Below are positions 36,288 to 64,000 of a stretch of DNA of 64,000 bases, piece after piece. The stretch is from Opitutales bacterium (GTDB taxonomy: Bacteria > Verrucomicrobiota > Verrucomicrobiia > Opitutales > JABSRG01): assembly GCA_028280845.1 (NCBI GenBank), contig JANQKZ010000036.1, positions 1-64,000 on the forward strand. The letters are read 5' to 3'. Each line of letters begins with the position of its first letter. Position 1 is the stretch's first letter. A program made the translations under genes and the position numbers. The notes beneath the pieces are model-generated. The model ran no database searches and was not told the DNA's origin. It saw only the letters and a program-made list of their open reading frames with translations.

Positions 36288-38738
36288 TCAACGGGTCACG
36301 AACTGCATGGCGTAGAGCTTAGCTCCCCGCATGCGGAAAACGACTTTCACGGGTCGACCCTGGAGGGATGAAATATCAGCGGTGGTCTCTGCCCCATCCA
36401 GGCGAAATTCAATTTCATGGTCGATGTAGTCCCCATTGATATAAAGCCCGTTATCGAGACCGAATCCCGGAATGGGTTCACCCTCCTCGTCGAGAAACCC
36501 GACTTGGGCATAACCGGCTGCATCCGTATCAATATTAAGAACAAGCCGATTCCCTTCGAAGGTGAGCGGTCGGGTGACGATGATCCCATGGGTCTCGTAG
36601 GGGGCCTCCGCTGATACGAAGCCGTCCAATCGCTGCACCACCCGGTAGACCGCATCGAATTTATCCTCATCTTCCCAGGTACTGTGGTAAATTCCGGCGG
36701 CGTAAACATATTGCCAGATCTCGTTGCCTCGCCGGATCATTCCCTCGGCGAAATAGGCCTGAGGTGAGTAGCGCCCCAGGTAATCGCCAATGCCGGCGTA
36801 GGCCGGGCGGGCATAGCGGAACCAGTTGCGGCCGTCGCGGGAGACCGCCACCTGGGCTTCCACCGTGCCGGAGCCAGCGCCCCGTCTCTCGTCATACAGC
36901 ACCCAACGCTCAGGGGGGCCGTCTCCGATCTCGTAATGGAAATACATCAGGGGGAAGGCCACGTAGGTATCCGGCGCCCAGGGATACTTGTGCGCCTTGG
37001 GAACATAGATGCCGAGGCCTTCCGGGTCGAAGTCGTCTAGGACTTCGAACTTGATCGGACCCTCAACGCCGAAATCGCCGGGCACGAGTGGTCCGTTATC
37101 CAGGAACCATGGTTTGGGGTCCCGCAGGCGTCGGGACTTTGCCATTTCCCGTGTCGCCTCCTGATCCATGTATCGGAGAGGCCAGGATTCGAAGGGGTTA
37201 TCCGTTTCGGTGATGATGAACGCGCGCTGGGTGTTGTCACCACGCGTGTGCGTCATGCCAGTGCGCATGTAGCTGACGTACTTCTGCCGCTGGTCGTCGT
37301 AGAAGAAGCTGGTCTGTGAACCAGAGCGGAAGGAATGGGAGGCGGTGCGCACCTTGTGCCACTTCCAGCCATCAGGGCTGGTGAAAAGGTAGGTCCCACG
37401 ATCACCGCTGCCGGAAATGTATTTCCAACGGTGTTCCGCGGGCGCATTGAGATCGATGAATGGGGACCCCATGGCCACCCCATAAGGAATCACAATGTTG
37501 TTGCGACCCTTGTGGGAGAGCCCCGTAGGGTGGGGCTCGAAGTGGATGCCGTCGCGGGAGGTGTGGACCATGAGGTAGTCATCGGGGCCACCGTTATACA
37601 TCCGGATAAGGCCGTCCTCATCCTCAACAAAAGTCAGGTGCTTGCGGAACTGCCCCTCGATGTTATCCAGGACGCGGTGGGTCAGCCGAGGCGGGTTCAC
37701 CGTGAACGTAATGTTGCGCTGTGTCTCGATCAGGGCGTCGTCGATAAAGACGTGTTTCCGGTCGCCCAAGGGCACCACACCGGGCTGCGGTTTGCCGGGC
37801 TCGAAGAGCAGGGGTGGGCCCTTGATCAGCTCCGGCCTGGGATAAACCGGAGCAATACTGCCCGGCGAGGAAAAGTCGCTTTTGTATACCGCATGGCTGG
37901 AAATCCGCAATTCGTCGATCGCTCCCGGGAAGGGCTGTTCCCAGACGGAATTACGCAAGAGCGAGAGATAGGCCAGATCCTCCGAAGGCGGCAGCGCCTT
38001 CCAACCGCGCGCGTTTGCCTCCCCCGCCCGCTTGCCATCCACGTAATGCACTACGCGATTCCGGCTGGCCTCATGGACGAAGGCCAGGTGCCTCCAGGTG
38101 CCACTCGTAAACAGGTCGGATGCCGTCGGCAGCTCCAGCTTCACGGCAGCCGCAGTTTGCTCCAAGACAAAGGTCCGGCCGCGGGTGCCCAGTCGGAGGG
38201 ACAGGGTATCATTGCCCTCCTCGCCCCGTTCGCCATTTCCGATCTCCATGACCACCCCATCGCGAGAGTTTCCATCCAGACGAGCCCAGAATTCCACTGT
38301 CCAGTCGCCGGCTCCCAGATTCAGGTCCGTCGTGGTCGGGTTGGGCGGGAAAAATTCACGCCGGAGATGTCGCTCGCCCATGGTCATGAAGGCCGCGTAG
38401 TCGGCGTTGTGCCACGACAGCGGAGCTTGTCGCTTGCCCGGAGGCGTCGGGAGCTGCTCCTGACCAAACTCAACCGAGCGGCCCGGGCTGCTGGTCCCCG
38501 CCGGGATCTCAAATTCGGGATAGGGTTCGGAGGACAGCGCGTTGCCGAAATGACCGGGCACAATGCTGCCGCCTAAACCCAAGGTAAGGGGAGCCGTCAA
38601 ACCATCTACGCTATCTATCGTATGACTCGGATAAAGGCCGATTGGCTCATCGAAGGTCCAGGTCACAACCGTCTTCGCCCATACGGGCGTCGCCAAGGTG
38701 AGAAGGAATAGGTTCCAGCAAAAGAGTTTGGGTGTCAT
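36288..38738 (-). CDS. Secreted LamG-like/beta-propeller protein, putative glycan-active (paralogue of 44162-46663)
   Basis: This 816-residue protein has a signal peptide (FLLTLATPVWA). Residues about 25-290 hold a concanavalin/LamG-type sandwich (DWTVEFWARLDGNSRDG, GTWRHLAFVHE, VHYVDGKRAGEA, AIDELRISSHAVY). From about 320, HVFIDDALIETQRNITF opens a long beta-propeller of the GH32/43/68-like shape, with TSRDGIHFEPH and VAVSRDGRNWFRYARP as Asp-box-like turns. A C-terminal sandwich with VFRMRGAKLYAMQF closes the protein. I cannot name catalytic residues. Domain order and last 120 residues match the 833-residue protein at 44162. Three ATGAAA-type inverted repeats lie in its promoter region. It may bind or hydrolyse the same polymer as its paralogue. 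Confidence 0.75.
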   Translation of the reverse strand: MTPKLFCWNLFLLTLATPVWAKTVVTWTFDEPIGLYPSHTIDSVDGLTAPLTLGLGGSIVPGHFGNALSSEPYPEFEIPAGTSSPGRSVEFGQEQLPTPPGKRQAPLSWHNADYAAFMTMGERHLRREFFPPNPTTTDLNLGAGDWTVEFWARLDGNSRDGVVMEIGNGERGEEGNDTLSLRLGTRGRTFVLEQTAAAVKLELPTASDLFTSGTWRHLAFVHEASRNRVVHYVDGKRAGEANARGWKALPPSEDLAYLSLLRNSVWEQPFPGAIDELRISSHAVYKSDFSSPGSIAPVYPRPELIKGPPLLFEPGKPQPGVVPLGDRKHVFIDDALIETQRNITFTVNPPRLTHRVLDNIEGQFRKHLTFVEDEDGLIRMYNGGPDDYLMVHTSRDGIHFEPHPTGLSHKGRNNIVIPYGVAMGSPFIDLNAPAEHRWKYISGSGDRGTYLFTSPDGWKWHKVRTASHSFRSGSQTSFFYDDQRQKYVSYMRTGMTHTRGDNTQRAFIITETDNPFESWPLRYMDQEATREMAKSRRLRDPKPWFLDNGPLVPGDFGVEGPIKFEVLDDFDPEGLGIYVPKAHKYPWAPDTYVAFPLMYFHYEIGDGPPERWVLYDERRGAGSGTVEAQVAVSRDGRNWFRYARPAYAGIGDYLGRYSPQAYFAEGMIRRGNEIWQYVYAAGIYHSTWEDEDKFDAVYRVVQRLDGFVSAEAPYETHGIIVTRPLTFEGNRLVLNIDTDAAGYAQVGFLDEEGEPIPGFGLDNGLYINGDYIDHEIEFRLDGAETTADISSLQGRPVKVVFRMRGAKLYAMQFVTR

Positions 38739-38826
38739 CTAAGGGGTATTTCGTGAAAATAGAGATTTTTCATGATTATTTTTGAAATTAACTCTACTTC
38801 ATGCAAGAAAATTTTAATAAAATTCC

Positions 38827-38866
38827 ATGAAATTTTCATTTATTTCATTATTTTTCCATGAAATAA
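38827..38866. promoter_or_regulatory. Clustered ATGAAA/TTTCAT inverted repeats upstream of the LamG protein
   Basis: ATGAAA-T-TTTCAT at 38827-38839 is followed at once by TTATTTCAT and ATGAAATAA arms (38840-38848 and 38858-38866). The whole 150-bp region is AT-rich against a GC-rich background. Likely operator for the minus-strand gene starting at 38738. Confidence 0.55.
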
Positions 38867-38888: not shown

Positions 38889-39911
38889 TTATTCAGACAG
38901 ATCCAACGGCACCGAAAATTCCTGGTCGGATTCCGACCTGAATTGCTTCCGCCAGGGAGAGTAAGTATACACCCGAATGGTCCCCTGATTGGGTTCAAAT
39001 TTGAGAATCCTGAGCCATCCTTCTCCTCCATGAGTAAGGAATTGATAATTCGACAACATTTGGATTACCGGCTGCCCTGCCTCGTTATCCGAAACCAGTA
39101 AGCCAGTTCCGTCCCCTTTCACATGACCCGAGAGAACCATAATGATATTATCATTTCCATAAACCAATTTATTCCAGATCTCCTCCCCATCATTCCACTC
39201 GGGGTTCGATTTTTTAGGGCTCCACTTATCTCCCTCCCCCAACCGGGTATCGTCGTCATACATGTAGCAATGTGTCACGAGAATGACTTTTTGGTCGTGA
39301 TTACTCACCAGGGAGTCCGCCCATGCCAGGGTCTCATCATCCGGTCCATACTCTAGCCCGAGGACCAGAAACTGCTGACGAGCCGCCTGGAAGTATCCGA
39401 AACTGTTGTTAGCGGTATTACCAAGCTGCCCTCCATAATTGGACCTTCCCCTGAAGCGCCAGGGAGAGAAGACGGCATTGTATCGAGACGCCACCCGGAA
39501 CCCCGCCTTATAGGCTGCTCGGTCGTAATCGTGATTACCGGGGACCACCATGTAAGGGACCACGCCGTCGATTAGACGGAAGGCACGATCGGCCACTGTC
39601 CATTCAGCCTCAGAGCCCTCTTCCACAAGATCCCCGAGGTGCAACACATATTTGGCATTGAGAGGCTCCGCCACTTGGCTGATCCAGTTGAACTGAGAGA
39701 GGAAAATCTCCGGAAAAAAGGCGGCATAGCGCTGGGTATCCGGCACCACGATAAGGGTAAACTCCCCAGCCGCCGGATCGACTTGAATGGGAAAATCATG
39801 CGGAAGTACGGCCCCTTTTCCAGCCCAGGCAAACCGGGGACCAGCCCCAATCCAGAGCAAGCCCAGAACCCCGATCACGGCATTGGCCTTAACGATCCGC
39901 CACAGCGCCAT
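38889..39911 (-). CDS. Secreted calcineurin-like metallophosphoesterase
   Basis: The 340-residue protein has an N-terminal export signal. Phosphoesterase motifs are in order: VVPDTQRY, VLHLGDLVEEG, VVPGNHDYDR, ILVTHCYMYDD and VLSGHVKGDGTG. Two usual metal ligands differ: DxH is DTQ, which is common in this PDTQ subgroup, and the final GHxH is GHVK, so a conserved histidine is replaced by lysine. It likely hydrolyses a phosphate mono- or diester in the periplasm, but the GHVK change could weaken it. Its start overlaps the end of the enolase-superfamily gene by 23 bp, so they are one transcript. A phosphatase tied to acid-sugar catabolism is unusual. Confidence 0.85.
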   Translation of the reverse strand: MALWRIVKANAVIGVLGLLWIGAGPRFAWAGKGAVLPHDFPIQVDPAAGEFTLIVVPDTQRYAAFFPEIFLSQFNWISQVAEPLNAKYVLHLGDLVEEGSEAEWTVADRAFRLIDGVVPYMVVPGNHDYDRAAYKAGFRVASRYNAVFSPWRFRGRSNYGGQLGNTANNSFGYFQAARQQFLVLGLEYGPDDETLAWADSLVSNHDQKVILVTHCYMYDDDTRLGEGDKWSPKKSNPEWNDGEEIWNKLVYGNDNIIMVLSGHVKGDGTGLLVSDNEAGQPVIQMLSNYQFLTHGGEGWLRILKFEPNQGTIRVYTYSPWRKQFRSESDQEFSVPLDLSE

Positions 39912-41232
39912 CGGAATATACCGGCGAATGCCAGGGTTTGGGTTGATAGGGGTAACGATTTGCTACCGTTTCATTCAGAGTGAGTCCCAGACCGGGGCGA
40001 TCAGGTAAAGCGGCGTACCCATCAACCGCCTCATACAGGCCACCATTAAAAAGGTCCTTCCAGAATGGGGTTTGCCCGCTACCCGTCTCCAGGATCACAG
40101 CATTGGCAGTGGCTGCACACACATGCATGGAGGCCACCGTGGACACCTCGCTCTGCGGGTTATGGGGGGCCAGGTCAACCCTGAAGGATTCGGCCAAAGC
40201 TGCTATTTTCCGCATCTCGGTGATCCCCCCGCAATGAACAATGTCTGGCTGGACATAATCCACGAGATGGCGGGAAACAAGGTCGTTGAACTCATACTTG
40301 GTCAACAGCCGCTCCCCGGTAGCCAAGGGCACGCTCGTGCTTTGCCGAAGGCGTTCCCACTCCGGAATGACTTCAAGCTGCCCGGGCTCTTCGACCCACA
40401 TGGGCTTGTAGGCTTCCGCCTCCTGGCAAAAATCGCGGGCCATGGGCGGAGTTGCCTGACCGTGAAGCTCGCATAGAATATCGAACTCCCAACCCACGGC
40501 TTCTCGAACCGCATGCAGAAGTTCAATTCCGTAGCGCACATTTAAATTCGGCTCCACTACCCGGCCACGGGTTGGAAGAAAATTACTTTTGCAGGCGGTG
40601 TACCCGGCCTCCTTCACTGCCAGCCACTTCTTCACCTCGGCCTCAATCCAACCATCCGCCCTTGCCTCGACATTAAAACCGGGCTTCCGCTCCTCCCAGA
40701 TTTTGTGCTCCGTCCGGCTATTATGCCGATGGAAGTTTGCGTTGGTGTAAACCCGAATGCGGTCCCTGGCCTTGCCTCCTAACAATTGCCAGATCGGCAC
40801 TCCCAGGGCCTGTCCTAAAATATCCCACAGGGCAATATCTACCGCACTGATAGCAGACATCAGGATTGGCCCACCACGATATCGGGGCCCCCTGAACATG
40901 CCCTGCCAGTGGCGTTCAATCTCGGTCGGGTCCTTGCCCACCAAATACCGCTTGTGCTCCTGGATTGCCGCCTCCACCGACTTGGCTTTGGCAGTCATGG
41001 TACCATCCCCCAATCCAACCAGCCCCTGGTTCGTGTAGAGCTTGACGAAGACCCAGTTTTCATCATTCCCCGAGTCCACCACAAAGGTCCTCAGGTCCGT
41101 AACTTTCAATCCGAGGTCAAAAGCCTTTTCCGCCGCCTCGATCAAGGGGGCATCCACCCCCTTTCCCCGAAGGGGGTGTCCAGCCAAAAGGCCGGCTCCA
41201 AGTGAGGAAGTGAGAAATCGACGTCTATTCAT
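39889..41232 (-). CDS. Tat-exported enolase-superfamily dehydratase (D-galactonate dehydratase-like)
   Basis: This 447-residue protein begins MNRRRFLTSSLGAGLLAG, a twin-arginine-type signal. The capping domain has WDILGQALGVPIWQLLGGKARDRIRVY. The barrel shows FDILCELHGQATP, MWVEEPGQLE, PLATGERLLTKYEF, DYVQPDIVHCGGITEMRKIAALAE and VDLAPHNPQSEV. That order of ligands and the histidine in APHNP match D-galactonate/mannonate-type dehydratases. Such enzymes make 2-keto-3-deoxy acids and are normally cytoplasmic, so the Tat-like leader is odd. It may be a periplasmic enzyme, or the leader may be misread. It is divergent from the PhoD gene across palindromic sites and overlaps the metallophosphoesterase gene. 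Confidence 0.88.
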   Translation of the reverse strand: MNRRRFLTSSLGAGLLAGHPLRGKGVDAPLIEAAEKAFDLGLKVTDLRTFVVDSGNDENWVFVKLYTNQGLVGLGDGTMTAKAKSVEAAIQEHKRYLVGKDPTEIERHWQGMFRGPRYRGGPILMSAISAVDIALWDILGQALGVPIWQLLGGKARDRIRVYTNANFHRHNSRTEHKIWEERKPGFNVEARADGWIEAEVKKWLAVKEAGYTACKSNFLPTRGRVVEPNLNVRYGIELLHAVREAVGWEFDILCELHGQATPPMARDFCQEAEAYKPMWVEEPGQLEVIPEWERLRQSTSVPLATGERLLTKYEFNDLVSRHLVDYVQPDIVHCGGITEMRKIAALAESFRVDLAPHNPQSEVSTVASMHVCAATANAVILETGSGQTPFWKDLFNGGLYEAVDGYAALPDRPGLGLTLNETVANRYPYQPKPWHSPVYSDGAVADR

Positions 41233-41309: not shown

Positions 41310-41349
41310 TTTTCATGAAAATAATTTTCTTATTTTTCATTCCATGAAA
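41310..41349. promoter_or_regulatory. TTTTCATGAAAA palindrome and TTTCAT-TCC-ATGAAA repeat in a divergent promoter
   Basis: A perfect 12-bp palindrome lies at 41310-41321, with a spaced copy of the same half-sites at 41335-41349. They sit between the enolase-superfamily gene (start 41232, minus) and the PhoD gene (plus). The ORF-track start of PhoD at 41344 is the ATGAAA half-site itself, which argues for the later start. Confidence 0.6.
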
Positions 41350-41385
41350 CTGCTGGGAAACAGAGAATGGTACTACACGTTATTC

Positions 41386-42858
41386 ATGAAAGCCCAGCCA
41401 AAGATAATCTGGATATACTCACTCCGGGGGCCAATCGCGCTAATCTGTATTCAACTTGGACTAACGATGTGGGCCTGGCCTGCCCCGGCCCCCGAACCGA
41501 CCCGGTCGGAAATCGGAACTCCGCGAGTCATCAATGGCCCGATGATTGGCTATGTCACGCCCGAACTCATCACAGTGTGGGCCCGGGTCACAGGCCCCTA
41601 CCCCTTTTCTGTGCGCTTCTCTGAGTATCCGGACATGAGAGCCGCCCGCGAGACAGCAGTCGAGGTTCCCGGGATGAAACGGGATTTTGCGGTGATTGCC
41701 CGGATGGAAGGGTTGAAACCGGGGACAACTTACTACTACCAAGCGTTGGTGAACGGGGAGCCCCCCAAATACCTGGACGCCGGGAAGGTGTTCCAAGTGA
41801 AGACCGCTCCGGCCCCCGGAAACCGGGCCCGGTTCACGGTGGGCTTTGGTTCCTGTGCGAGGACAGCCAAAGATCCTCACCAGCCCATATGGCAGGTGGT
41901 CCGGGACAAGGGGCCAGACTTATTTTTCTGGCTCGGTGATAATATTTATGGGGATACCCTTTATCGAACTTTTCTGGAAGAGGAATGGCAGTACCAGCGC
42001 CGGGTTCCCCTCCTTCAGCCGATACTGCGGTCCACACCCCAGCTGGCCACCTGGGATGACCATGACTACGGCCTCAATGGGCATGACCGGGAAAATCCCA
42101 TCAAGGAGATGGCCCTGGACGTGTTCAAAAATTATTGGGCAAACCCGGCTTACGGCTTGGCAGATGCCCCCGGGGTGTTTTTTCACTATGCGTACGGGGG
42201 GGTGGACTTCTTTTTTCTCGATGGCCGAACCTACCGGGATCCTGCCACGGTAGAAGACGGGCCAGGGAAGACCTTTTTGGGCCCTGCTCAATTGGCATGG
42301 CTTCAAAATGGACTTCAAAACAGCGATGCCCCGTTTAAAGTCATCATTTGCGGCTCAGGGTGGACCACTTTGAAGGGCCCGCATGAAGACACCTGGGGAT
42401 CCGCCCTGACTGAGCGCAATGCCTTGTTTAATTTTATCCGGGATAAGAACATAAATGGTGTGGTCCTGTTAAGCGGGGATACGCATCAGGCGGAATTAAA
42501 TTGCATCCCATGGTCCAACCACGGTGGCTATGATCTTTATGAAATGGTCAGTTCCCCCTTGGCCCAAGGCACTTCCAGCAAGATCCAAAGGCAGATTGAC
42601 GAAATATATATCCGGGAGTTTTACCAGGATGCTCCTAATTTCGGTTACCTGAGCTTCGATCTCTCCTTGGATGATCCGGAACTGCGCTTTGTCCCCATAG
42701 ATATATTCGGGGAGCAGGGATTTGATGAATTTCACATCCGGGCCTCGGACCTGGTAAACGGTAAAAAAACCTGGCCGGAAAAAATTGATCCCGGAGAAGC
42801 CCGTAAAAGAGAAATGGGCTATTATCCGGATTTAACCCTGGAGGACATCAAGTTATAG
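41386..42858 (+). CDS. PhoD-like alkaline phosphatase/phosphodiesterase
   Basis: The start is moved from 41344 to the ATG at 41386, outside the operator-like repeat; 490 residues remain with a hydrophobic leader (GPIALICIQLGLTMWAWPAPA). An N-terminal Fn3-like PhoD domain (VTPELITVWARVTG, GLKPGTTYYYQALVNG) precedes the catalytic part. Motifs are VGFGSCAR, FFWLGDNIYGD, LATWDDHDYGLNG, FFLDGRTYRD and VLLSGDTHQAEL. PhoD enzymes use Fe3+/Ca2+ to cleave phosphate mono- and diesters, including teichoic acids and nucleotides, outside the cytoplasm. It sits in the LacI locus, divergent from a dehydratase, together with three other phosphoesterases. Paralogue: 58511-60220. Confidence 0.9.
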   Translation: MKAQPKIIWIYSLRGPIALICIQLGLTMWAWPAPAPEPTRSEIGTPRVINGPMIGYVTPELITVWARVTGPYPFSVRFSEYPDMRAARETAVEVPGMKRDFAVIARMEGLKPGTTYYYQALVNGEPPKYLDAGKVFQVKTAPAPGNRARFTVGFGSCARTAKDPHQPIWQVVRDKGPDLFFWLGDNIYGDTLYRTFLEEEWQYQRRVPLLQPILRSTPQLATWDDHDYGLNGHDRENPIKEMALDVFKNYWANPAYGLADAPGVFFHYAYGGVDFFFLDGRTYRDPATVEDGPGKTFLGPAQLAWLQNGLQNSDAPFKVIICGSGWTTLKGPHEDTWGSALTERNALFNFIRDKNINGVVLLSGDTHQAELNCIPWSNHGGYDLYEMVSSPLAQGTSSKIQRQIDEIYIREFYQDAPNFGYLSFDLSLDDPELRFVPIDIFGEQGFDEFHIRASDLVNGKKTWPEKIDPGEARKREMGYYPDLTLEDIKL

Positions 42859-42912: not shown

Positions 42913-42927
42913 AATTTCCATGAAATT
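42913..42927. promoter_or_regulatory. AATTTC-CAT-GAAATT site upstream of the LacI gene
   Basis: Arms AATTTC and GAAATT flank CAT, 38 bp upstream of the regulator's start. This is the same half-site as at the other sites in this region, placed for autoregulation. Confidence 0.55.
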
Positions 42928-42965
42928 GAATCACGTCTGTAACATGCACAAACCAAGGATCAACC

Positions 42966-44057
42966 ATTAGTAAAGTAACCTTAACCGACGTCGCTCGAGA
43001 GGCTGGAGTCGCTCTAGGAACTGCTTCTCGGGTCATAAATAACCGCCCGAATGTTAACGAGGATGCCCGTCGTCGAGTCTTGAAAGCCGCGAAGGAGTTA
43101 AATTATATCTCCCTCCGCAAGCGCAAGGCCGCTCAAAATGGCGCAGATTCCGGTTCGGGTATCGGAGCAAAGTTGGGTAACATCGGCGTGGTCATTTTCG
43201 GGATGGAGCGATCCTTCGTCCAATTACCGATTACAGCTGAAGCCATTCAGGGGGTGGAACGGCAAATCACACGGATGAACCGCAATATGCTGCTGGCTAA
43301 CGTCCCCCAGTTGGAACAATCTCCGGCCTTCATGATAGATAACTCGGTAGAGGGCCTGGTGCTCCGGTGCCCCCCCGCCGGAGCGTTTCCATCCCCGGAA
43401 GAGAATGAGTTTATTCGCCTGGTGCATCGCTACCCCGCCGTCTGGCTCTTCAACAAGCCGGAAAATGGCCACGGGGACCTGTGCGGGTACGACACCGCAA
43501 AAACGGTCCTTATGGCGGTTAACCATTACAAGGAGATGGGGCATAAGCATATTGCTTTTATCAATCCGCGTCCGGGTAACTTACTCTTGGAGCAATTGAA
43601 AAAGCACTTTTTCTTTGAGGCCCCTAAGGCGGGTCTCAAAACCACTTTACTTGAAAAAGAACGGGCAGACCCCATCACCTGGCCACTGCCTGCCATTCAA
43701 GATGTTCACTATGTGAAACCCCTCCTTGAGCAACTGAAAGCCATGCCGAAAAAGCAGAGGCCCACGGGCCTGTTTGTCGGGGGAGACTCCATCGCTGTCC
43801 AGATTTATATCGCGGCGGAATCGATGGGCCTGAAGGTGGGTAAAGATTTGAGTATTATTTCCGTCAATAACGAGAAGACCTTGACCAATATCCTGAATCC
43901 GGAGCTGACCACCGTAGACGTCTTTTCCGAGGTAGTGGGCCATCGGGCGGTGGATCAATTAATTTGGCGTCTCCAACACCCGGAGGTTACCCAGGAAATG
44001 CGAGTCCTCGTGGCACCCAGTCTGAAGGTTGGCAAATCCGTGAAGAAATTGAACTAG
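42966..44057 (+). CDS. LacI-family transcriptional regulator, apparent ATT start
   Basis: The ORF track begins at a TTG at 43080, which cuts off the DNA-binding domain. Reading back in frame recovers KVTLTDVAREAGVALGTASR, then VINNRPNV and ARRRVLKAAKELNY, a complete LacI helix-turn-helix. Between the in-frame stop at 42927 and 43080 there is no ATG or GTG. The position where LacI proteins begin MSKVTL reads ATT-AGT-AAA at 42966, preceded by AAGGA at the right distance. The 363-residue protein then has a periplasmic-binding-protein-like sensor domain (IGVVIFG through TGLFVGGDSIAVQIY and LNPELTTVDVFSEVVG). It probably responds to a sugar or sugar acid and controls the surrounding genes. A sequencing error at the start cannot be excluded. 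Confidence 0.88.
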   Translation: MSKVTLTDVAREAGVALGTASRVINNRPNVNEDARRRVLKAAKELNYISLRKRKAAQNGADSGSGIGAKLGNIGVVIFGMERSFVQLPITAEAIQGVERQITRMNRNMLLANVPQLEQSPAFMIDNSVEGLVLRCPPAGAFPSPEENEFIRLVHRYPAVWLFNKPENGHGDLCGYDTAKTVLMAVNHYKEMGHKHIAFINPRPGNLLLEQLKKHFFFEAPKAGLKTTLLEKERADPITWPLPAIQDVHYVKPLLEQLKAMPKKQRPTGLFVGGDSIAVQIYIAAESMGLKVGKDLSIISVNNEKTLTNILNPELTTVDVFSEVVGHRAVDQLIWRLQHPEVTQEMRVLVAPSLKVGKSVKKLN

Positions 44058-48868: not shown

Positions 48869-49780
48869 TTAGACCAGGTTGAACTCAACCGCCTTTTGCT
48901 TGAGATTCTCGGCCCGGTCTCCGGGAGTATCCACCAGGGGAGGGGCGACCGTGGGCCCGCAGATCCCCATCAGGTGGAGCATATACTTCAGGTCGGCAAT
49001 GGCGTTTCCAATGGGCTTTCCTTTCAGGTAGACATCATTCAAGCCTGTGGCCTCCGCCTGGAGTTCCTGGGCCCGCATATGGTTTCCATCTCTGGCTGCC
49101 TCAAATATCTGCTGCATGGTCCCCGGAAGCACATTGCCCAGACTGGGGACAAATCCATTCGCTCCCAGCTCCATCGTACGGGCCGCAAAGACGGTGGGCC
49201 CGATGTAAACATCGAAGTCGTTCCGATCCCGGTAGCGAGTGATGAGCTGCTCCAGGCGCTCTGGTAAGAATTCAGAGTCCTTGATGCCCACCAGGCTCGG
49301 GTGATGGCTCAACCGTTCAATGATCTCGAGATCCAGGGAATGGTGACTGGTTTGCGGGATGTTGTAGAGGAGCAGAGGCCCACCAATTCCGTCGGCTAAA
49401 CGGATATACCAATGATAGATCTCATCCTGGTTCAGCGGATAATAGTGGGGAGTATGAGCTACAATAGCATCCATGCCTAGCTCCTGATAGCGTTTGCCCC
49501 GATCAATCACGGCCTCCAGACAGTTGCCCCCGATTCCTCCATATAGCATATATGCAGCTCCCAGGTGTCGCCTTGCCTCCCGAAACAGCAGTTCCTTCTT
49601 AGCCTCGCTGAGCGAAATAGCTTCGCCGGTTGTTCCAGCTAGCAGGAAAGCACGGATACCTGATTCGGCACAAAACTCCAACAAGCGGCGGAGCGCCGGA
49701 ACATCCACCTCAAAATCACGGGTCATCGGCGTGATCAGGGGAACAATTACTCCCTCATAACGTTTGTATTCGACCGTCAT
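48869..49780 (-). CDS. Dihydrodipicolinate synthase-family (DapA-like) aldolase
   Basis: This 303-residue TIM-barrel class I aldolase has the pyruvate-binding LLAGTTGEAISLS, the active-site Tyr139 in LLLYNIPQT and the Schiff-base Lys167 in LVGIKDSEF. The family includes lysine biosynthesis DapA, N-acetylneuraminate lyase and 2-keto-3-deoxy-acid aldolases. Inside an acid-sugar operon, and downstream of dehydratase-type genes in the same locus, a 2-keto-3-deoxy-acid aldolase giving pyruvate plus an aldehyde is the best guess. The neighbouring iron alcohol dehydrogenase could act on that aldehyde. It is separated from the flanking genes by 5 and 23 bp. Confidence 0.9.
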   Translation of the reverse strand: MTVEYKRYEGVIVPLITPMTRDFEVDVPALRRLLEFCAESGIRAFLLAGTTGEAISLSEAKKELLFREARRHLGAAYMLYGGIGGNCLEAVIDRGKRYQELGMDAIVAHTPHYYPLNQDEIYHWYIRLADGIGGPLLLYNIPQTSHHSLDLEIIERLSHHPSLVGIKDSEFLPERLEQLITRYRDRNDFDVYIGPTVFAARTMELGANGFVPSLGNVLPGTMQQIFEAARDGNHMRAQELQAEATGLNDVYLKGKPIGNAIADLKYMLHLMGICGPTVAPPLVDTPGDRAENLKQKAVEFNLV

Positions 49781-54969: not shown

Positions 54970-54977
54970 CGAATAAG

Positions 54978-56732: not shown

Positions 56733-56781
56733 AAGCCATTTCAACCTATGATCCACATATTCTTTAGCAAGGATTTTATCT

Positions 56782-56822
56782 TTTTTTCATGAAAAAACTG
56801 GAAATTTTGGTGAAATTTTTCA
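56782..56822. promoter_or_regulatory. TTTTTTCATGAAAAAA palindrome and TGAAA-TT-TTTCA repeat in a divergent promoter
   Basis: A perfect 16-bp palindrome at 56782-56797 and a second inverted pair at 56811-56822 lie between the nine-gene operon (minus) and the 5'-nucleotidase-like gene (plus). This is the longest symmetric copy of the recurring site. The ORF-track start at 56789 is inside it. Confidence 0.62.
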
Positions 56823-56875
56823 ATTCAAATCAAAAGAATATTTACAAAATCAGCAAAAAACGGGAGCTTTGGGCT

Positions 56876-58396
56876 ATGATGCTACGCTGCTCTCCGTCGT
56901 GGAACCGGACCTTCCTTCGATTCCTGTTCCTGCTTTTCCTACTGCCTTTTTCCGCCTTTTCGGAGGTCCAGCCACTTGTGCTCGTCTACACCAATGACAT
57001 CCATGATCACATTCGACCAGACTATGACGGGCGGGGCGGCCTACCCTTTGTTTCGGGCTTTATCCGGTCTTTGCGAAACCAACACCAGGATGAGCTCCTC
57101 GTCCTGGACTCAGGGGACGGGGCGGAAAAGGGTGATATCGCGGCCTGGGTTTCTCATGGCCGCCTGACCTTCCAGGCCATGTCACGAATCGGCTACGACG
57201 CCTGGGCCCCGGGCAATCACGACCATGACTTCGGCATTGACGGCCTGACAGAATTCGCCGACCTGGCGGGATCCCCCCTCCTCTGCATCAACCTGATCGA
57301 CGAAGCCGGTAAGCCCATTTTCCAGCCCTCCATGGTCGTGGAGAAAAATGGCCTGAAAATCGGACTTATTGGCATGATCGTGCCCCGCAACGAAGGGTGC
57401 CTGAATGATGAGGAAACGGCCATTGCCATGGCCTTGGAAGCCGAGCGGCTGCGCCCCATGGTCGACCTCATCGTCGCCATCTGCCACGACGGAGTTGAAG
57501 AATGTGCCCGTATCGCCGAGGTGGCCACCGAAATCGATATCTTTATCAGCGGCCATACCCATGTAGCCCTGGAGGAGGCCTACATCCATGAAAAAACCGG
57601 CGCCATCATCGTGCAGGCCGGTTGTTATGCTGAATATGTCGGAATAATGGAATTGGAGATAGACGTCGAAGCCAGGGAGCTGGTCGACTTCACCAACGCA
57701 CTGGTTCCCATGGATCATGACTCCATCCCCTGCGACGTAGACATGGTTGAATGGTTCCGCCAGGAGGAGCTTAAACTGACCCCCGAGGCCAACCGTATCG
57801 TGGGCTGGTCCAGCCAGGAAATCGGCTACGCCCAGGTGGGTATCCTCGCCGCCGAAGCCATTCGGCAGGCCACCGGGGCGGATATTGGTTTTAACGCCTC
57901 CGGCCAGGTGGTCCGGGGCAAGCTCCCCAGCGGAATCATTGACCTTAATGCCGTCTTCCGCACCGGTGGGGAGCGAGGAAATGAACTCGTCGAGCTCACC
58001 CTGACCGGGAAAGAAATCGAGGCCTACCTGAACGGTCTCACCCTGAGCGACTGGCACCTGACCCAGTGGTCCGGTTTTACCGCCCACCACGATGGAAAGC
58101 ACATTTCCACCAACCTGGATGCGGGCCGAACATACCGTGTAGCCATGCCTGAACTGGAATTTACTTCACGGTTTTCTCGCCTTTTCGAGAAGGTCCGAAC
58201 CAACCCGGCCAACTTTCCCGGTATTCCCGCCCTCAACCGCGACATTACCCCAAAGCGGATCCCCCAGACCTGGACCGAGGTGGTAACCCACCTCATGACA
58301 GGTTGGGCCACCCAGAACAAATCCTTGGAAGAAGAAATCCTCATGCTGGCTCAACAATCCGGTCAAATGACCATCGCACAAGTCACCAGGGATTAG
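56876..58396 (+). CDS. Secreted 5'-nucleotidase/UshA-like metallophosphatase
   Basis: The start is moved from 56789, which lies in the palindrome, to the ATG at 56876 with GGGAG upstream. It gives 506 residues with a signal peptide (FLRFLFLLFLLPFSAFS). The N-terminal metallophosphatase domain has LVYTNDIHDHIRPD, LVLDSGDGAEKG, PGNHDHDFG, VAICHDGVEE and IFISGHTHVALEE with both histidines intact. The C-terminal 5'-nucleotidase domain (IGFNASGQVVRGKLPSG, VFRTGGERGNELVELTLTGKEI) is about 170 residues. The family dephosphorylates nucleotides, UDP-sugars or sugar phosphates in the periplasm. It is divergent from the nine-gene operon and followed by PhoD2. Confidence 0.9.
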   Translation: MMLRCSPSWNRTFLRFLFLLFLLPFSAFSEVQPLVLVYTNDIHDHIRPDYDGRGGLPFVSGFIRSLRNQHQDELLVLDSGDGAEKGDIAAWVSHGRLTFQAMSRIGYDAWAPGNHDHDFGIDGLTEFADLAGSPLLCINLIDEAGKPIFQPSMVVEKNGLKIGLIGMIVPRNEGCLNDEETAIAMALEAERLRPMVDLIVAICHDGVEECARIAEVATEIDIFISGHTHVALEEAYIHEKTGAIIVQAGCYAEYVGIMELEIDVEARELVDFTNALVPMDHDSIPCDVDMVEWFRQEELKLTPEANRIVGWSSQEIGYAQVGILAAEAIRQATGADIGFNASGQVVRGKLPSGIIDLNAVFRTGGERGNELVELTLTGKEIEAYLNGLTLSDWHLTQWSGFTAHHDGKHISTNLDAGRTYRVAMPELEFTSRFSRLFEKVRTNPANFPGIPALNRDITPKRIPQTWTEVVTHLMTGWATQNKSLEEEILMLAQQSGQMTIAQVTRD

Positions 58397-58406: not shown

Positions 58407-58452
58407 TTTCGTGAAAAAAAAATTTTTTCATGAAATTTTTAGTGAATTTCAT
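58407..58452. promoter_or_regulatory. TTTCATGAAA palindrome with flanking inverted repeats before PhoD2
   Basis: TTTCATGAAA lies at 58426-58435. ATGAAATT (58430-58437) also pairs with AATTTCAT (58445-58452), and TTTTC-GT-GAAAA lies at 58407-58418. All are in the 114-bp gap between the 5'-nucleotidase-like and PhoD2 genes, so PhoD2 probably has its own promoter under the same control. Confidence 0.55.
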
Positions 58453-58510: not shown

Positions 58511-60220
58511 ATGATGTTAAAGCGATACCCTTGGAGCCCCTTCCTGATTCTGGTCTTTGGTCTGTTCACAAGCATGAGCGGACAATCCGAAGGCGAATAC
58601 GTTATCGACGCCCCTGAAGATGCCTGGGAAGACGGCTCCCCCTACCCCTACTATGGGAGTGAAAACCCATGGAACCGTCGCATGTTCGGTGAAAAAGCCG
58701 CCAGCTGGCAGTATAAGCGCCAGGGCCAGAGACAGATCCTGAAGATCATCGAAGGCGACCCCGCGGGCGCCCTCGACCTGGCCGAGTTTCGCCTGGGCCA
58801 GCGTCCGGATGACCTGGAGGCCCTCTATATCATGACGGTGGCCGCATCCCAGCTGGGGAAACTGGACCTCGCAATCCAAACTATGCTCCATGCCTTGAAC
58901 GCAGGCCTTCCCTTTGAACGTTTTTTGGCCGGTCCGCGCGACCTCCTGGAGCCCCTCTATAAGACCGAAACCTTCCAGCTCATGAAGGCCGATTATGATC
59001 TACCTCTGGTCCACGGCCCCAAGCTGGGGGCCATGACCGATAACACGGTGGACTTCTGGGTACGCACCGCCGATTTAACCCGGATCCAAATTAAGGTATT
59101 CAAGGAGGGCGGTTCCCGAGAACCGGTCTCCACCGCATCCTTTCGCTCGGAAAAGAAAGATGACTTCACAGGAAGGGGCACGGCCAAGGGGCTCAAACCA
59201 AATACGGCTTATACCTACGAGGTGTGGATCGACGACCAGTATGTCGATACCGGGCTACCCCAGCGCTTTACCACCTATCCCGCCGAGGGCAGTTCAGATG
59301 GTTTCGTCATCGCCTTCGGGGGCTGCGCCGGATATACCCCGTGGTATGAACGGATCTGGGATGAGATCCTGGACTTTGAACCCCGGGCCCTCCTCCTCTT
59401 GGGCGACAACGTCTACCTCGACATCCCGGATGATCCCGGTGCCTTTCATCAATATACCATGTACCGCCGCCAGTCCCGGCCCGAGTATCGCCGCCTGACC
59501 AGCACCACCCCCGTTTATGCCATTTGGGATGACCACGACTCTGTCATGGACGATGTCTGGATGGGCCCCTACCGGGACCGCCCCTCATGGAAAATGCCCA
59601 CCCTGGAGTTTTTTAAACAAAACTGGCCCAATCCCTACTATGGGAGTGAAGAGTGGCCCGCGGTCTGGCACGATTTTTCCATTGGCGATGTCGACTTCTT
59701 CATGCTGGACGGCCGCTTTTACCGGACTCATCCCTACAGCGATGATGCCACCATGCTCGGCCCGGATCAATTGGCCTGGCTGAAGCGCTCGCTCAAGGAA
59801 TCGACTGCCACGTTTAAGGTCATTGTTTCACCGGTCAATTGGGTGATTGGTTCTAAGGCCGGCAGCCGCGACACCTGGCAGGGCTTCCCGCGAGAACGAG
59901 ATGAGATCTTCAATTTTCTCGCCGAACATGAAATCGAAGGCGTCTTTCTCCTCTCCTCCGATCGTCACCGTGCGGACATCTGGAAGATTGAACGCGAAAA
60001 TGGATATCCGCTTTGGGAGTTCGGCAACGGCCAACTCACCAACATCCACACGCACTATACAGTACCGGAGGCCGTTTTCAGTTATAACGAGAAAAATTTG
60101 TTCGGGCTCCTACGCTTCCGGACCGATATTTCCGATCCGTGGGTCTCCTACGAGATCGTCAACATCGATGGAGAGACGGTCCATACCCACCTCGTGCGCC
60201 TGAGTGAGATGAAACACTAA
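58511..60220 (+). CDS. PhoD-like alkaline phosphatase/phosphodiesterase (second copy)
   Basis: The 569-residue protein has a signal peptide (FLILVFGLFTSMSG) and an extra N-terminal helical part of about 140 residues with TPR-like repeats (ALDLAEFRLGQRPDDLEALYIM). The PhoD Fn3-like domain follows (TDNTVDFWVRTADLTRIQI), then the catalytic core: FGGCAGYTP, LLLGDNVYLD, AIWDDHDSVMDD, FFMLDGRFYRT and LLSSDRHRADIW. Where PhoD1 has SGDTH this copy has SSDRH, keeping the Asp and His. It probably cleaves a phosphate ester or diester outside the cytoplasm. The TPR-like leader is not usual for PhoD and may mediate protein contacts. Confidence 0.87.
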   Translation: MMLKRYPWSPFLILVFGLFTSMSGQSEGEYVIDAPEDAWEDGSPYPYYGSENPWNRRMFGEKAASWQYKRQGQRQILKIIEGDPAGALDLAEFRLGQRPDDLEALYIMTVAASQLGKLDLAIQTMLHALNAGLPFERFLAGPRDLLEPLYKTETFQLMKADYDLPLVHGPKLGAMTDNTVDFWVRTADLTRIQIKVFKEGGSREPVSTASFRSEKKDDFTGRGTAKGLKPNTAYTYEVWIDDQYVDTGLPQRFTTYPAEGSSDGFVIAFGGCAGYTPWYERIWDEILDFEPRALLLLGDNVYLDIPDDPGAFHQYTMYRRQSRPEYRRLTSTTPVYAIWDDHDSVMDDVWMGPYRDRPSWKMPTLEFFKQNWPNPYYGSEEWPAVWHDFSIGDVDFFMLDGRFYRTHPYSDDATMLGPDQLAWLKRSLKESTATFKVIVSPVNWVIGSKAGSRDTWQGFPRERDEIFNFLAEHEIEGVFLLSSDRHRADIWKIERENGYPLWEFGNGQLTNIHTHYTVPEAVFSYNEKNLFGLLRFRTDISDPWVSYEIVNIDGETVHTHLVRLSEMKH

Positions 60221-60473: not shown

Positions 60474-62387
60474 ATGAAGCCCCGTCCGCACCCGCTGCTC
60501 CTCTGCCTCTCCTTCGTCTTTCTCCAGTGGCTTCCGGCGGATCCCCCCGAGGATTTACATGCCTGGACTGCCGCCCCCCATGGGTGGCAATTGGAGCGCC
60601 TGGGCCCAAGCACCGTCTCGGTCGACCTGGAAGCCTACGAGACGATCCTCTACGTGGCAGCCGAGGCCTCCGGACCGGGGGAAGGAACCAGGGCCGCCCC
60701 CTACTCCAGTCTGGCCCGCGCCCTCAAAGCCGGAGCTGAACAACCGGGCCGCACCGCTGTCCTCGTCGCAACGGGAACCTACCGTGAGGCGCCCTACACC
60801 ATGGTCGAAGGGGTAGACCTGTTTGGGGGTTTCCATCCATCGACCTGGGAGCGCGACCTGTTCGAGCACCCCACCCGCCTCTCCGGCGAGGAAATGTCTC
60901 GCGTGTTGGTCGGTGCGGACGATGCCATCCTCGACGGGTTCATCGTTTCGAACGGCCGCGTAGTCGGCCATGGAGCAGGGCTGTATTGCCGGGAGACCTC
61001 TCCTACCGTCACGAACAACCGCTTTGAGAATAACCTGGCTGTGGAACCGGGAGACTACAGCCACGACCACGATCGCCGCCGCCAACGGGCTCATGACGGA
61101 GGGGCCATTGCCCTCGTCAATTACGCCAATCCGGCCATCCATAACAACATCTTCGTCAACAACTCGACCGGGGTCGGCAACGGTGCCGCCATCTCGGCGG
61201 CCGATGACTGTATACCGCAAATCGGCTATAATGTTTTCTGGGAAAACCGGGCCGGGATCCATGACCACGCCATCACCCGGTCAGGAAATGGGGCTGCCGT
61301 CAGCCTGCGTAATTCTTCCCGGGCGGCCATCTTCCACAACCTGTTCGTTGGCAACCAGGCCCATGGGGGAAGCGATGCCGGCGCCCTTTTCTTCGAGTAC
61401 TTTTCCTGGCCTGAAGTCAGGTGGAATGTGTTCCTCAATAATTATGCTTCGGACGATGGGGGCGCCATGGACTCCCAGAAATACTCACACCCCAAAGTGA
61501 AATACAACCTGCTCTTTGGCAACCAGGCCGATGGTTCCGGGGGCGGGGCTCACCACGACGACTCGCTCATGGAGTTTGAAAACAATATTTTCGCCTATAA
61601 CGTCGCCCAGAACCAGGGTGGGGCCTTTGGCGGCTCCCATGGCTGGATTCGAGCCATCAATAATACCGTTGTATTCAATGAAGCTGTCAAGAAGGGGGGC
61701 GGGGCCGTCCATCACTACAACATGAAAAATCCGCACCTGAAGCAGATTCTCATGCGGAACAATATTTTCTGGGGCAACCAACCCGATGAGCTCTTTCTCG
61801 AGTCCGGCGGCGATGTCTATTACAATATAGTGGAAGGCGGGTATGGCAACGCCTACGGGGCTTACGAGATGGATCCGACCTTCCTCGACAATGGACTCGA
61901 GCTTCATCCCGGGGAGGCGATCTACAGCGAGCCGCGGTTTGTCTCTCGCATCACTTTGAATGCGGGGGAAGATACCCTATCCCCGGATGCCCTCGTCGGC
62001 CGGGTTATCCGGCGCCTGGGTCCCGTCCCCGATGATGTCCTCGAAAAGCCGGTCGTGCAGAAGGCCCAGGTCCGGCAGGGCGCTGGCCTCGCCGCCGTGA
62101 CCGAGGGCGATGGTATCGCTGGCGACGGCCCCCAGTACCGGGCATTCCTCGGAAGTTGGTGGAGCTTGATCCGGGCCAACGGTCCCGACTGGGTCGAGGT
62201 CTGGGGGCCGGTTGCGCTCTACCCCGAATCGACATTGGAAATCATCCCCACCTTTCACCTGCACCCCGATTCGCCCGCCATCAATAACGGGCTCTACACG
62301 GACTATGCCCCCGACGACATCGACGGGCAGCCCCGCTACTTCCCCACCATCGATTTTGGAGCCGATGAATATGTTCCCGAAAATTAA
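60474..62387 (+). CDS. Secreted right-handed beta-helix protein (paralogue of 54978-56732)
   Basis: The 637-residue protein has a short export signal. The entry LYVAAEASGPGEGTRAAPYSSLARAL and LVATGTYREAPYTMVEGVDLFGGFHPSTWERD parallels the beta-helix protein at 55-56.7 kb. Rungs such as SPTVTNNRFENN, NPAIHNNIFVNNS, FHNLFVGNQAHG and FENNIFAYNVAQN follow, and the tail ends FGADEYVPEN. Both paralogues also share the mid-late VGRVIRR/SGRVIRIG strand. No catalytic residues can be named. It overlaps the next gene by 17 bp, so the two are co-translated; this links the helix protein to a propeller-type enzyme. Confidence 0.8.
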   Translation: MKPRPHPLLLCLSFVFLQWLPADPPEDLHAWTAAPHGWQLERLGPSTVSVDLEAYETILYVAAEASGPGEGTRAAPYSSLARALKAGAEQPGRTAVLVATGTYREAPYTMVEGVDLFGGFHPSTWERDLFEHPTRLSGEEMSRVLVGADDAILDGFIVSNGRVVGHGAGLYCRETSPTVTNNRFENNLAVEPGDYSHDHDRRRQRAHDGGAIALVNYANPAIHNNIFVNNSTGVGNGAAISAADDCIPQIGYNVFWENRAGIHDHAITRSGNGAAVSLRNSSRAAIFHNLFVGNQAHGGSDAGALFFEYFSWPEVRWNVFLNNYASDDGGAMDSQKYSHPKVKYNLLFGNQADGSGGGAHHDDSLMEFENNIFAYNVAQNQGGAFGGSHGWIRAINNTVVFNEAVKKGGGAVHHYNMKNPHLKQILMRNNIFWGNQPDELFLESGGDVYYNIVEGGYGNAYGAYEMDPTFLDNGLELHPGEAIYSEPRFVSRITLNAGEDTLSPDALVGRVIRRLGPVPDDVLEKPVVQKAQVRQGAGLAAVTEGDGIAGDGPQYRAFLGSWWSLIRANGPDWVEVWGPVALYPESTLEIIPTFHLHPDSPAINNGLYTDYAPDDIDGQPRYFPTIDFGADEYVPEN

Positions 62388-64000
62388 ATCCGCCTTAACC
62401 CTTTTCTTTTCCCTGTTGTCGCTCGGTGGTGCCGCAACCCCTCCCCCCGCAGATGAGATCCGGGATCAGCCCGTAATATATACCGGCTCGGAAGACGCCG
62501 ACAAGCGCTGGCACCACGGCGGGTTCCGGTCCGCGGTCGGCGTCCACAAGATCCAGGTCCTGCGCGCCTCGCGACATGAACCCCTGCAAAACCGGGAGGT
62601 GGGCTGGACTTATAACCATGCTCCCATGCTGGCCTACTGGGAGGGCCGCTTCTGGATGAATTACGTATCCAATAGTGTCGAGGAGCACGGTACACCCGGT
62701 CGCACCCCCTTCACCTCCTCAGCCGACGGCTATAACTGGCAATTTCCTGAAGTCGGCTTCCCGGTGGTCCGCCTCCCTGAATTTACCCCCGACCCGCGCT
62801 ACTTCGGTGGGCGCAGCCCCGGCGTCCAGCCCGAGGGTACTGAGTCAGTCATGCATCAGCGCATGGGATTCTACGTGGCCCCCAATGGCCGGCTGCTCAC
62901 CTCGGGCTTCTACAGCTATTGCCCGAATGTCCGATACGGCCCTAACCGCGGCCAGGGTCTCGGCCGCGTCATCCGTGAGGTCTTCCCCAACGGAAGCCTC
63001 GGCCCGATCTATTTTGTCCGCTACAACCGCCACGCCGGCTGGGATGAGTCCAATACCCCCTTCCCCTTTTTCACCGAATCCGGGGATCCGGGCCTGATTG
63101 AGGCCTGCCGGGCCCTCCTCGCCGATAAGTTGATGACCCTGCAGTGGTGGGAGGATGATCGCGGAGATGATGGGTTCTTCACCTTGGAAATCCCCGATGA
63201 TCTGAAAATCTCCGACCTCACCTTCGGACCCATCCCGGAGGACGACGTCAATTACATCGAGCCCAAGGCCCTGAGTTACTATAAACGCGACGACGGGGTC
63301 ACCGTAGGTGTCCTCAAAAGCGAACTCGCCCTCTTGAGTGAAGACGACGGCATGACCTGGACCCGTGGACGCCACCCCTTCCCGGAGTCCGCCGCCAAGA
63401 TCTGGGGGCAGCGCACCGACGACGCACGCTTTGCCCTTGTCTATTGCCATAGCGCCACCCGCCGAAACCGCTTCCCGCTGGTGGCCGTGACCAGCGACGA
63501 TGGCTACGCTTTTGATAACATCAACCTGATCCACGCCGAAGTTCCTCCCATGCGTTACCGCGGGACCAATAAGGCGCAAGGCCCCCAATATATCCGGGGA
63601 ATCATGCCCGGAAATGGCAACCCGCCCGGCGACCACATGTGGCTTACCTACAGCGTGAACAAGGAAGATATCTGGGTAGCCCGGGTCCGCACCCCCATTG
63701 AGGACTCCGTTTCCGAGCATCTGGACGAATCCTTTGAGGGCTACGAGAGTATCGTGGATATGGAACTGTGGAATCTTTACCTGCCCCAGTGGGCTCCCAT
63801 TTCATTGGCCGTCGATCCCTGGGACCCGAAGAATCAGGTGCTCCAGATCAAGGATGAAGACCCTTACGACTACGCCAAAGCGGAGCGTGTCATTCCTCAA
63901 AGCAAACGGCTCAAGATTTCCTTCCGTGTCCTCCAACAACATTATGGAATAAACGGCCTCGAGGTCGAAGCCCAGACGGCCCGGGGCGGCCGCCCCATGC
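62371..64000 (+). CDS. Secreted beta-propeller glycan-active protein (sialidase- or lyase-like), 3' end off window
   Basis: This frame is absent from the ORF track because it is open to the right edge. The ATG at 62371 overlaps the beta-helix gene by 17 bp and starts a signal peptide (SALTLFFSLLSLGGAA). The visible 543 residues include GWTYNHAPMLAYWEGRFWMNYVSN and FTSSADGYNWQFP, then LLSEDDGMTWTRGRHPFPE and VAVTSDDGYAFDN, all Asp-box-like turns of a propeller. From about residue 450 a beta-sandwich-like region begins (LDESFEGYESIVDMELWN). Proteins of this look are annotated as exo-sialidase-like or appear among propeller polysaccharide lyases; I cannot decide. A large minus-strand ORF over it is a shadow. 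Confidence 0.72.
   Translation, partial: MFPKIKSALTLFFSLLSLGGAATPPPADEIRDQPVIYTGSEDADKRWHHGGFRSAVGVHKIQVLRASRHEPLQNREVGWTYNHAPMLAYWEGRFWMNYVSNSVEEHGTPGRTPFTSSADGYNWQFPEVGFPVVRLPEFTPDPRYFGGRSPGVQPEGTESVMHQRMGFYVAPNGRLLTSGFYSYCPNVRYGPNRGQGLGRVIREVFPNGSLGPIYFVRYNRHAGWDESNTPFPFFTESGDPGLIEACRALLADKLMTLQWWEDDRGDDGFFTLEIPDDLKISDLTFGPIPEDDVNYIEPKALSYYKRDDGVTVGVLKSELALLSEDDGMTWTRGRHPFPESAAKIWGQRTDDARFALVYCHSATRRNRFPLVAVTSDDGYAFDNINLIHAEVPPMRYRGTNKAQGPQYIRGIMPGNGNPPGDHMWLTYSVNKEDIWVARVRTPIEDSVSEHLDESFEGYESIVDMELWNLYLPQWAPISLAVDPWDPKNQVLQIKDEDPYDYAKAERVIPQSKRLKISFRVLQQHYGINGLEVEAQTARGGRPM

Follow-up and report, generated by a model that had tools for sequence, protein, structure and literature searches.

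Which sugar acid is consumed by a gene cluster that combines sulfatases, phosphoesterases and a DUF1537-PdxA pair with a LacI-type repressor? We addressed this question in the first 64 kb (64,000 nucleotides, positions 1 to 64,000 of the forward strand, hereafter the window) of contig JANQKZ010000036.1, which is 92.5 kb long and belongs to the 4.79 Mb draft genome GCA_028280845.1 of an Opitutales bacterium; the genes in question lie at 36.3-64 kb. An earlier note on this DNA had proposed a LacI regulon for a glycan or glycolipid carrying both sulfate and phosphate. Our analysis suggests that the locus is probably a utilization system for a sulfated glycan that bears 3-deoxy-D-lyxo-hept-2-ulosaric acid (DHA), with a stepwise DHA pathway and LacI control. 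Rhamnogalacturonan II (RG-II) contains two sugars of the 3-deoxy-ulosonic type, one of which is DHA. The genes that the note had listed (four phosphoesterases, two LamG/propeller and two beta-helix paralogues, an acid-sugar dehydratase, a sulfatase with its symporter, and the DUF1537-PdxA pair) were all recovered with Pfam and NCBIfam. It did not mention the aldolase of the dihydrodipicolinate synthase (DHDPS) type, the iron-containing alcohol dehydrogenase (Fe-ADH) or the GH143 protein starting at ~62365.

A predicted intracellular route for DHA

Two operons diverge from 56.77 kb. The leftward operon encodes, in order, a beta-helix protein, a secreted HpcH-like protein, an SSF symporter, a cytosolic sulfatase, the Fe-ADH, the DHDPS-type aldolase, a DUF1537 kinase, PdxA and a LamG-propeller protein. 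The rightward operon opens with a 5'-nucleotidase-like protein, a PhoD protein, a beta-helix protein and a GH143 protein, and continues beyond the window with sulfatase, PhoD, BNR, dehydrogenase, glyoxalase, GH143, sulfatase, GH143, BNR and PF06439 proteins. The dense gene run stops near 79 kb, with one more PhoD gene at 79.6-80.4 kb; the locus spans ~30-79 kb of the contig and the window covers only its left half. The genes of the predicted route are the following.

62365..64000, plus strand, running on to 64362 of the contig: GH143-type DHA hydrolase homologue, copy a (Beta-prop_BT_1020 2.4e-90; 5mqr/BT1020 E=1.6e-118)
52317..53942, minus strand: SSF sodium symporter (171 bits to 5nv9, presumably the sialic acid transporter SiaT; next solved relative 131)
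50971..52320, minus strand: cytosolic sulfatase with CTPSR and without a signal peptide (Sulfatase 1.6e-46)
49804..50949, minus strand: Fe-ADH, lactaldehyde-reductase-like (ADH_Fe_C 2e-51), predicted to convert D-threuronate to D-threonate
48869..49780, minus strand: pyruvate aldolase of the DHDPS/N-acetylneuraminate lyase (NAL) type (DHDPS 1.4e-50; GTTGE and VGIKD motifs), predicted to convert DHA to pyruvate and D-threuronate
47667..48863, minus strand: DUF1537 kinase (SBD_N; conserved ADDLTGA, GGAT and KPxS motifs), predicted D-threonate 4-kinase
46660..47670, minus strand: PdxA/PdxA2-type dehydrogenase (PdxA 3e-99), predicted to convert D-threonate-4-phosphate to dihydroxyacetone phosphate (DHAP) and CO2

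All three GH143 proteins, two of them encoded downstream of the window, match the N-terminal half of BT1020, which we take to be the founding GH143 enzyme, releasing DHA in the RG-II system of Bacteroides thetaiotaomicron. The PF24067 propeller scores 302.7, 316.6 and 293.8 bits in the three copies (cut-off 27), the alignment of copy a covers residues 27-575 of BT1020 (5mqr), and 41 of the 45 columns that are invariant across 15 GH143 relatives are identical in BT1020. The window protein shares with BT1020 the N-terminal PF24067 propeller and a sialidase-like carbohydrate-binding module but stands alone, without the C-terminal half of BT1020 (1108 amino acids); the window system further differs in having three copies by sulfatases, an intracellular DHA cassette and a place in a separate clade. 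To our knowledge, the substrate specificity of GH143 is established only for BT1020. From this similarity, the three proteins are predicted to be DHA hydrolases of the BT1020 type.

DHA (COOH-CO-CH2-CHOH-CHOH-CHOH-COOH) has the lyxo configuration at C4-C6. Cleavage between C3 and C4 by a pyruvate aldolase releases pyruvate and leaves D-threuronate, a four-carbon uronate in which C5 and C6 are retained; reduction of its aldehyde gives D-threonate. Published work describes DUF1537 enzymes as tetronate kinases, one of them a D-threonate kinase (PMC10971088), and a D-threonate kinase acting with 4-phospho-D-threonate dehydrogenase to turn D-threonate into DHAP (PMC10079672). Because the stereochemistry of DHA yields exactly D-threonate, on which DUF1537/PdxA2 pairs are known to act, the aldolase, Fe-ADH, DUF1537 and PdxA proteins fit DHA without a missing step. 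In the mechanism we propose, the three GH143 proteins, helped by BNR, LamG-propeller, beta-helix, sulfatase and phosphoesterase proteins, would release DHA, possibly sulfated, outside the cell or in the periplasm. The SSF symporter would import it and the cytosolic sulfatase would strip any remaining sulfate, after which the aldolase would split DHA into pyruvate and D-threuronate, the Fe-ADH would reduce the latter to D-threonate, the kinase would form D-threonate-4-phosphate, and PdxA2 would oxidize and decarboxylate this product to DHAP and CO2.

Each half of the route resembles a known system. Like D-threonate catabolism (DtnK of DUF1537 with PdxA2), the locus has both enzyme families in adjacent genes and a predicted end product DHAP, but the window pair is preceded by an aldolase and an Fe-ADH predicted to make D-threonate from DHA, and its kinase is divergent. 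Like sialic acid/Kdo-type catabolism (NanA aldolase, SiaT; Kdo, 3-deoxy-D-manno-oct-2-ulosonic acid), it has a DHDPS/NAL-family pyruvate aldolase and a symporter closest to 5nv9, but cleavage here would leave a C4 uronate instead of an amino sugar or pentose, and this uronate would have to be reduced and passed to a tetronate kinase.

Distribution of GH143 and the cassette

In a sample of 338 genomes of the phylum, we searched for GH143 with PF24067 and for the kinase with a profile (A2) made from cassette kinases, which are ~30-35% identical among themselves. GH143 occurs in 13 genomes, and in 10 of the 12 other than ours the Fe-ADH, DHDPS, DUF1537 and PdxA genes stand directly beside it, eight with SSF. 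The cassette kinase occurs in 17 genomes, 12 of which carry GH143 (Fisher p ~2e-17, uncorrected for kinship); the kinases behind the profile were themselves linked to GH143, which makes this reverse search only partly independent. Kinase and GH143 are adjacent in ten of the 12 shared genomes, ~14 kb apart in the window and on different contigs in G010.

We also sought the cassette within 10 kb of 80 GH143 loci from GTDB species representatives, the best 80 of 585 relatives. It stands by GH143 in loci from Opitutales (L096), KSB1 (L027), Verrucomicrobiota (L031) and Planctomycetota (L132), and in an Ignavibacteriales genome (L130) the cassette kinase lies on a different contig from GH143. The GH143 proteins of the KSB1, Verrucomicrobiota, Planctomycetota and Ignavibacteriales loci are close to that of the window; at the Bacteroidota and Paenibacillus GH143 loci, the cassette was not found within 10 kb. 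The fullest counterpart is a 79.9 kb KSB1 contig, of which L133 and L027 are overlapping stretches. It holds an SSF symporter, homologues of the second PhoD-like phosphatase (49% identity), the HpcH protein (57%) and the beta-helix protein (37%), two BNR proteins, two sulfatases, two GH143 proteins, a calcineurin-like phosphoesterase, two LamG proteins and the full Fe-ADH/DHDPS/PdxA/DUF1537 set. The gene set that the earlier note had picked out is thus kept nearly whole in another phylum, and a second KSB1 locus (L029) has GH143, calcineurin-like, LamG, beta-helix and HpcH genes in a row. Beside the KSB1 cassette lies a GntP-family permease (L027:8647-9963), and because permeases of this family carry sugar acids, it fits an acid substrate.

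The synteny places GH143 and the cassette in two contexts. One, seen in same-order relatives, has GH2, rhamnose isomerase and GH28-GH43 genes close by, which is what pectin/RG-II use would lead one to expect. The other, seen in the window, KSB1 and Ignavibacteriales, has sulfatases and LamG and BNR proteins; the Pfam companions of GH143 in the window, compared with an RG-II utilization locus with its companion families GH137-GH142, are of this sulfatase/LamG/BNR kind. In the GH143 tree the two contexts fall into different clades, and the association with the cassette extends over two or more clades. Both contexts are most simply united by DHA.

Several observations weigh against the DHA pathway. 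The kinase scores 73 bits with the D-threonate kinase (DtnK) model, under its cut-off of 450, and lower still with the 3-oxo-tetronate kinase model (27 bits, also under the cut-off). PdxA scores 304.8 bits with PRK03371, the D-threonate 4-phosphate dehydrogenase (PdxA2) equivalog, whose cut-off is 583; it passes the general pdxA model (338.9 bits vs a cut-off of 290.35). One genome (G296, locus L104) has a full SSF-FeADH-DHDPS-PdxA-DUF1537 cassette and no GH143 match; neighbours of this cassette are GH2, MORN-repeat and fucose isomerase genes. Moreover, of 16 Bacteroidota GH143 genomes tested, 15 have no kinase match at E<=1e-15 in the whole genome, the exception being Pinibacter. The kinase is not obligatory for GH143 carriers, and Bacteroidota with GH143 may leave the DHA carbon unused or take another route. 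Finally, the tree places the GH143 paralogues of the window in a clade apart from Bacteroidota GH143 and BT1020.

This last point, and the presence of three paralogues, which suggests varied linkages or substituents, would suit a different substrate: the GH143-like enzymes and the cassette might act on another C7 ulosaric acid, or on an ulosonic acid, methylated or sulfated, from the exopolysaccharide of a bacterium or microalga, instead of DHA. We consider this quite unlikely, as the 41 of 45 invariant residues are common to BT1020 and this cassette also stands with GH143 where the context is pectin-like. Alternatively, the cassette might degrade free tetronates of other origin (D-threonate, D-erythronate or 4-hydroxythreonate-like compounds), its position beside GH143 being a hitchhike within a glycan island. 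Two genomes (G099 and G275) do have the kinase and PdxA only, without the aldolase, and DUF1537-PdxA pairs are known for D-threonate catabolism. However, free tetronates would explain neither the fixed aldolase and Fe-ADH nor the repeated adjacency to GH143 across phyla, which makes this origin improbable in our view.

The LacI-type repressor and its probable operators

A LacI-type repressor at TTTCATGAAA operators would govern the operons of the locus, with DHA or an intermediate of its route as a conceivable inducer. The repressor gene and the putative operators are located as follows.

42966..44057, plus strand: LacI/RbsR-type repressor (Peripla_BP_3; RbsR/PurR models match from residue 2 of 42981-44057)
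38749..38863: three TTTCATGAAA-type operators, at 38749, 38823 and 38854
41311..41349: operator, with a perfect TTTCATGAAA at 41311
42916..42925: operator upstream of the LacI gene, TTCCATGAAA
56785..56794: perfect operator between the divergent operons
58407..58435: two operators, that at 58426 perfect

The LacI reading frame (42930-43080) has no ATG, GTG or TTG ahead of the helix-turn-helix; the probable start is ATT at 42966 behind AAGGA, an unusual start codon unless the sequence is in error. Allowing at most one mismatch, TTTCATGAAA occurs 14 times in the window against 2.48 expected, and none of 100 shuffles reached this count. Ten of the 11 TTTCATGAAA-type sites at 36.3-64 kb start within the 3.9% of the sequence taken as intergenic. 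Two of the ten, at 41340 and 56785, overlap the more upstream of the possible start codons of their open reading frames and count as intergenic only because later starts were chosen; the site at 41382 also overlaps a possible start codon. Because the palindrome contains ATGAAA, coincidence with start codons is a real confounder of such counts. The genome has 20 perfect sites, four on the contig and 16 elsewhere, and the motif may therefore serve other regulators too.

In two other genera (L011 and L017), the SSF-cassette operon is immediately preceded by a perfect TTTCATGAAA, against an expectation of 0.003 per locus; their LacI orthologues are 39-40% identical to that of the window and have TTTCATATGAAA upstream of the gene. 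TTTCA-N0-2-TGAAA occurs near LacI in these two loci and in L009, the third locus carrying TTTCA-N-TGAAA variants. This footprint gives good support, short of proof, to the link between LacI and the operators, and the LacI control through TTTCATGAAA-type repeats suggested earlier gains from it; the direction of regulation would be repression.

Exported proteins, phosphoesterases and the source glycan

The remaining proteins of the locus are listed here.

32226..33020, minus strand: bicupin, candidate ring-opening or isomerizing enzyme (Cupin_2)
33128..36034, minus strand: TonB-dependent outer-membrane receptor (TIGR01782 536 bits, over the cut-off)
36288..38738, minus strand: LamG and beta-propeller secreted protein 1 (Laminin_G_3; family of 8 aligned)
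38889..39911, minus strand: secreted calcineurin-like phosphoesterase (Metallophos 1.6e-13)
39889..41232, minus strand: D-galactonate dehydratase-like protein of the mandelate racemase/muconate lactonizing enzyme (MR/MLE) family (MR_MLE_C 1e-57; PRK14017 326.7 bits, cut-off 311)
41344..42858, plus strand, start probably 41386: PhoD-like phosphatase 1 (PhoD 4.6e-28)
44162..46663, minus strand: LamG and beta-propeller secreted protein 2 (Laminin_G_3)
53965..54969, minus strand: secreted HpcH/HpaI aldolase-like protein with a Sec-type N-terminus (2-keto-3-deoxy-L-rhamnonate aldolase model 1.3e-7)
54978..56756, minus strand: right-handed beta-helix protein 1 (Beta_helix)
56789..58396, plus strand: 5'-nucleotidase/UshA-like metallophosphoesterase (Pfam/NCBIfam)
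58511..60220, plus strand: PhoD-like phosphatase 2 (PhoD)
60474..62387, plus strand: right-handed beta-helix protein 2 (Pfam/NCBIfam)

Four phosphoesterases within 22 kb raise the possibility, put forward in the earlier note, that the regulon serves a glycan or glycolipid with both sulfate and phosphate; on this reading the phosphoesterases would be essential and the kinase pathway would serve another acid sugar. The contig holds four of the ten PhoD proteins of the genome (p=2.7e-5), and PhoD-like phosphatase 2 has homologues in Ignavibacteriales (47%, L025) and KSB1 (49%, L133). Because of this enrichment and this recurrence in two other phyla, the phosphoesterases are probably functional parts of the locus, with phosphate cleavage as a possible activity. 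In two KSB1 loci, GH143 and LamG also have a calcineurin-like protein between them, but it is of another subfamily than that of the window. PhoD-like phosphatase 1, the 5'-nucleotidase and the window calcineurin-like protein lack close homologues in the related loci, a clear homologue elsewhere being seen for the PhoD2/PhoD3 type only; same-order relatives hold the cassette and GH143 without phosphatases, and metallophosphoesterase folds also serve non-phosphate esters. We therefore regard the sulfate-plus-phosphate target as unlikely: its sulfate part is likely, its phosphate part is not established, and GH143 points to a DHA-bearing glycan instead.

The sulfatases carry the type I C-x-P-S/T-R formylglycine motif (CTPSR at 50971-52320; CHPTR and CSPTR in the other two of the locus). 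Enrichment of sulfatases on the contig was dismissed (4 of ~98, p=0.12), and because the genome has ~98, sulfatases alone tell little about the substrate.

The two LamG-propeller paralogues are 44% identical and the two beta-helix paralogues 33%. The AlphaFold model of the LamG protein at 44162-46663 (mean predicted local distance difference test, pLDDT, 69.5) matches lectin-bearing sialidases and five-bladed GH families best, with low template-modelling (TM) scores, so that the model does not fix a catalytic class; by profile comparison, neither LamG protein resembles GH143. The predicted beta-helix model is poor (58.2). Neither the LamG-propeller nor the beta-helix proteins had informative matches among PDB sequences, and a profile search matched the lectin part only.

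The MR/MLE protein confirms the family of the acid-sugar dehydratase named earlier, but its Tat-type N-terminus (MNRRRFLTSSLGAGLL) puts it outside the cytosolic pathway. Both it and the HpcH/HpaI protein look exported, probably, and were dropped as cytosolic steps for their export-type N-termini; sugar-acid enzymes of two kinds, a dehydratase and an aldolase, thus bear such N-termini at this locus. HpcH/HpaI homologues 53-61% identical lie near GH143 in L028, L029 and L133, and the type recurs in KSB1 and Verrucomicrobiota. Bicupins directly follow GH143 in Ignavibacteriales and Verrucomicrobiota (L025:11955-12731, L022:12000-12782, L031:11942-12871), and that of the window is 43% and 40% identical to those of L025 and L031; by analogy with KdgF, it is a candidate ring-opening enzyme for DHA. 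The GH143 operon also encodes 3-hydroxyisobutyrate-dehydrogenase-like and Glyoxalase_3 proteins (L005:8512-10445), seen in none of the other loci.

Sulfatases, a TonB receptor, LacI, beta-helix and LamG proteins are shared with sulfated-glycan loci of Planctomycetota and Verrucomicrobiota, from which the window differs by adding a GH143/BNR ketosidase-like set, the ulosaric pathway and several metallophosphoesterases. The left part of the window (14533-20514 and 25135-27219), with GH28-like, GLAA-B/beta-helix, sulfatase and GH10 genes and a pyrroloquinoline quinone (PQQ) dehydrogenase with cytochrome c, is another glycan island.

As to the polymer, DHA ranks with Kdo as a major acid in prasinophyte scales (PMC10762512) and in Tetraselmis walls (in T. 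suecica, Kdo 54% and Dha 17%; PMC7693365), and RG-II is absent from algae (PMC12168206). A sulfated source is favoured because of the sulfatases, including the cytosolic one beside the symporter, and with moderate confidence we favour a sulfated, DHA-bearing glycan of green-microalgal type, e.g. a prasinophyte scale or theca polysaccharide. Taken as a whole, the following proposal is plausible but tentative: DHA -> pyruvate + D-threuronate -> D-threonate -> D-threonate-4-P -> DHAP + CO2 would be the first DHA catabolic pathway, coupled to GH143 across phyla. In the window it would form part of a system for a microalgal glycan of the prasinophyte scale/theca type, sulfated and rich in DHA, in which substituted DHA would be dealt with by the GH143 paralogues, the LamG-propellers and the metallophosphoesterases.

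A 2025 review lists the plant biosynthesis of DHA as unidentified and Dha standards as lacking (PMC12168206). We found no DHA catabolic pathway in the literature searched, a search that left out most subscription journals, so that absence is unproven. The cassette offers five proteins and a transporter to test, and the LacI-type repressor is a candidate sensor for a sugar that is difficult to come by. If the predicted route holds, the cassette would mark out microbes that feed on the RG-II of land plants or on the scale glycans of green microalgae.

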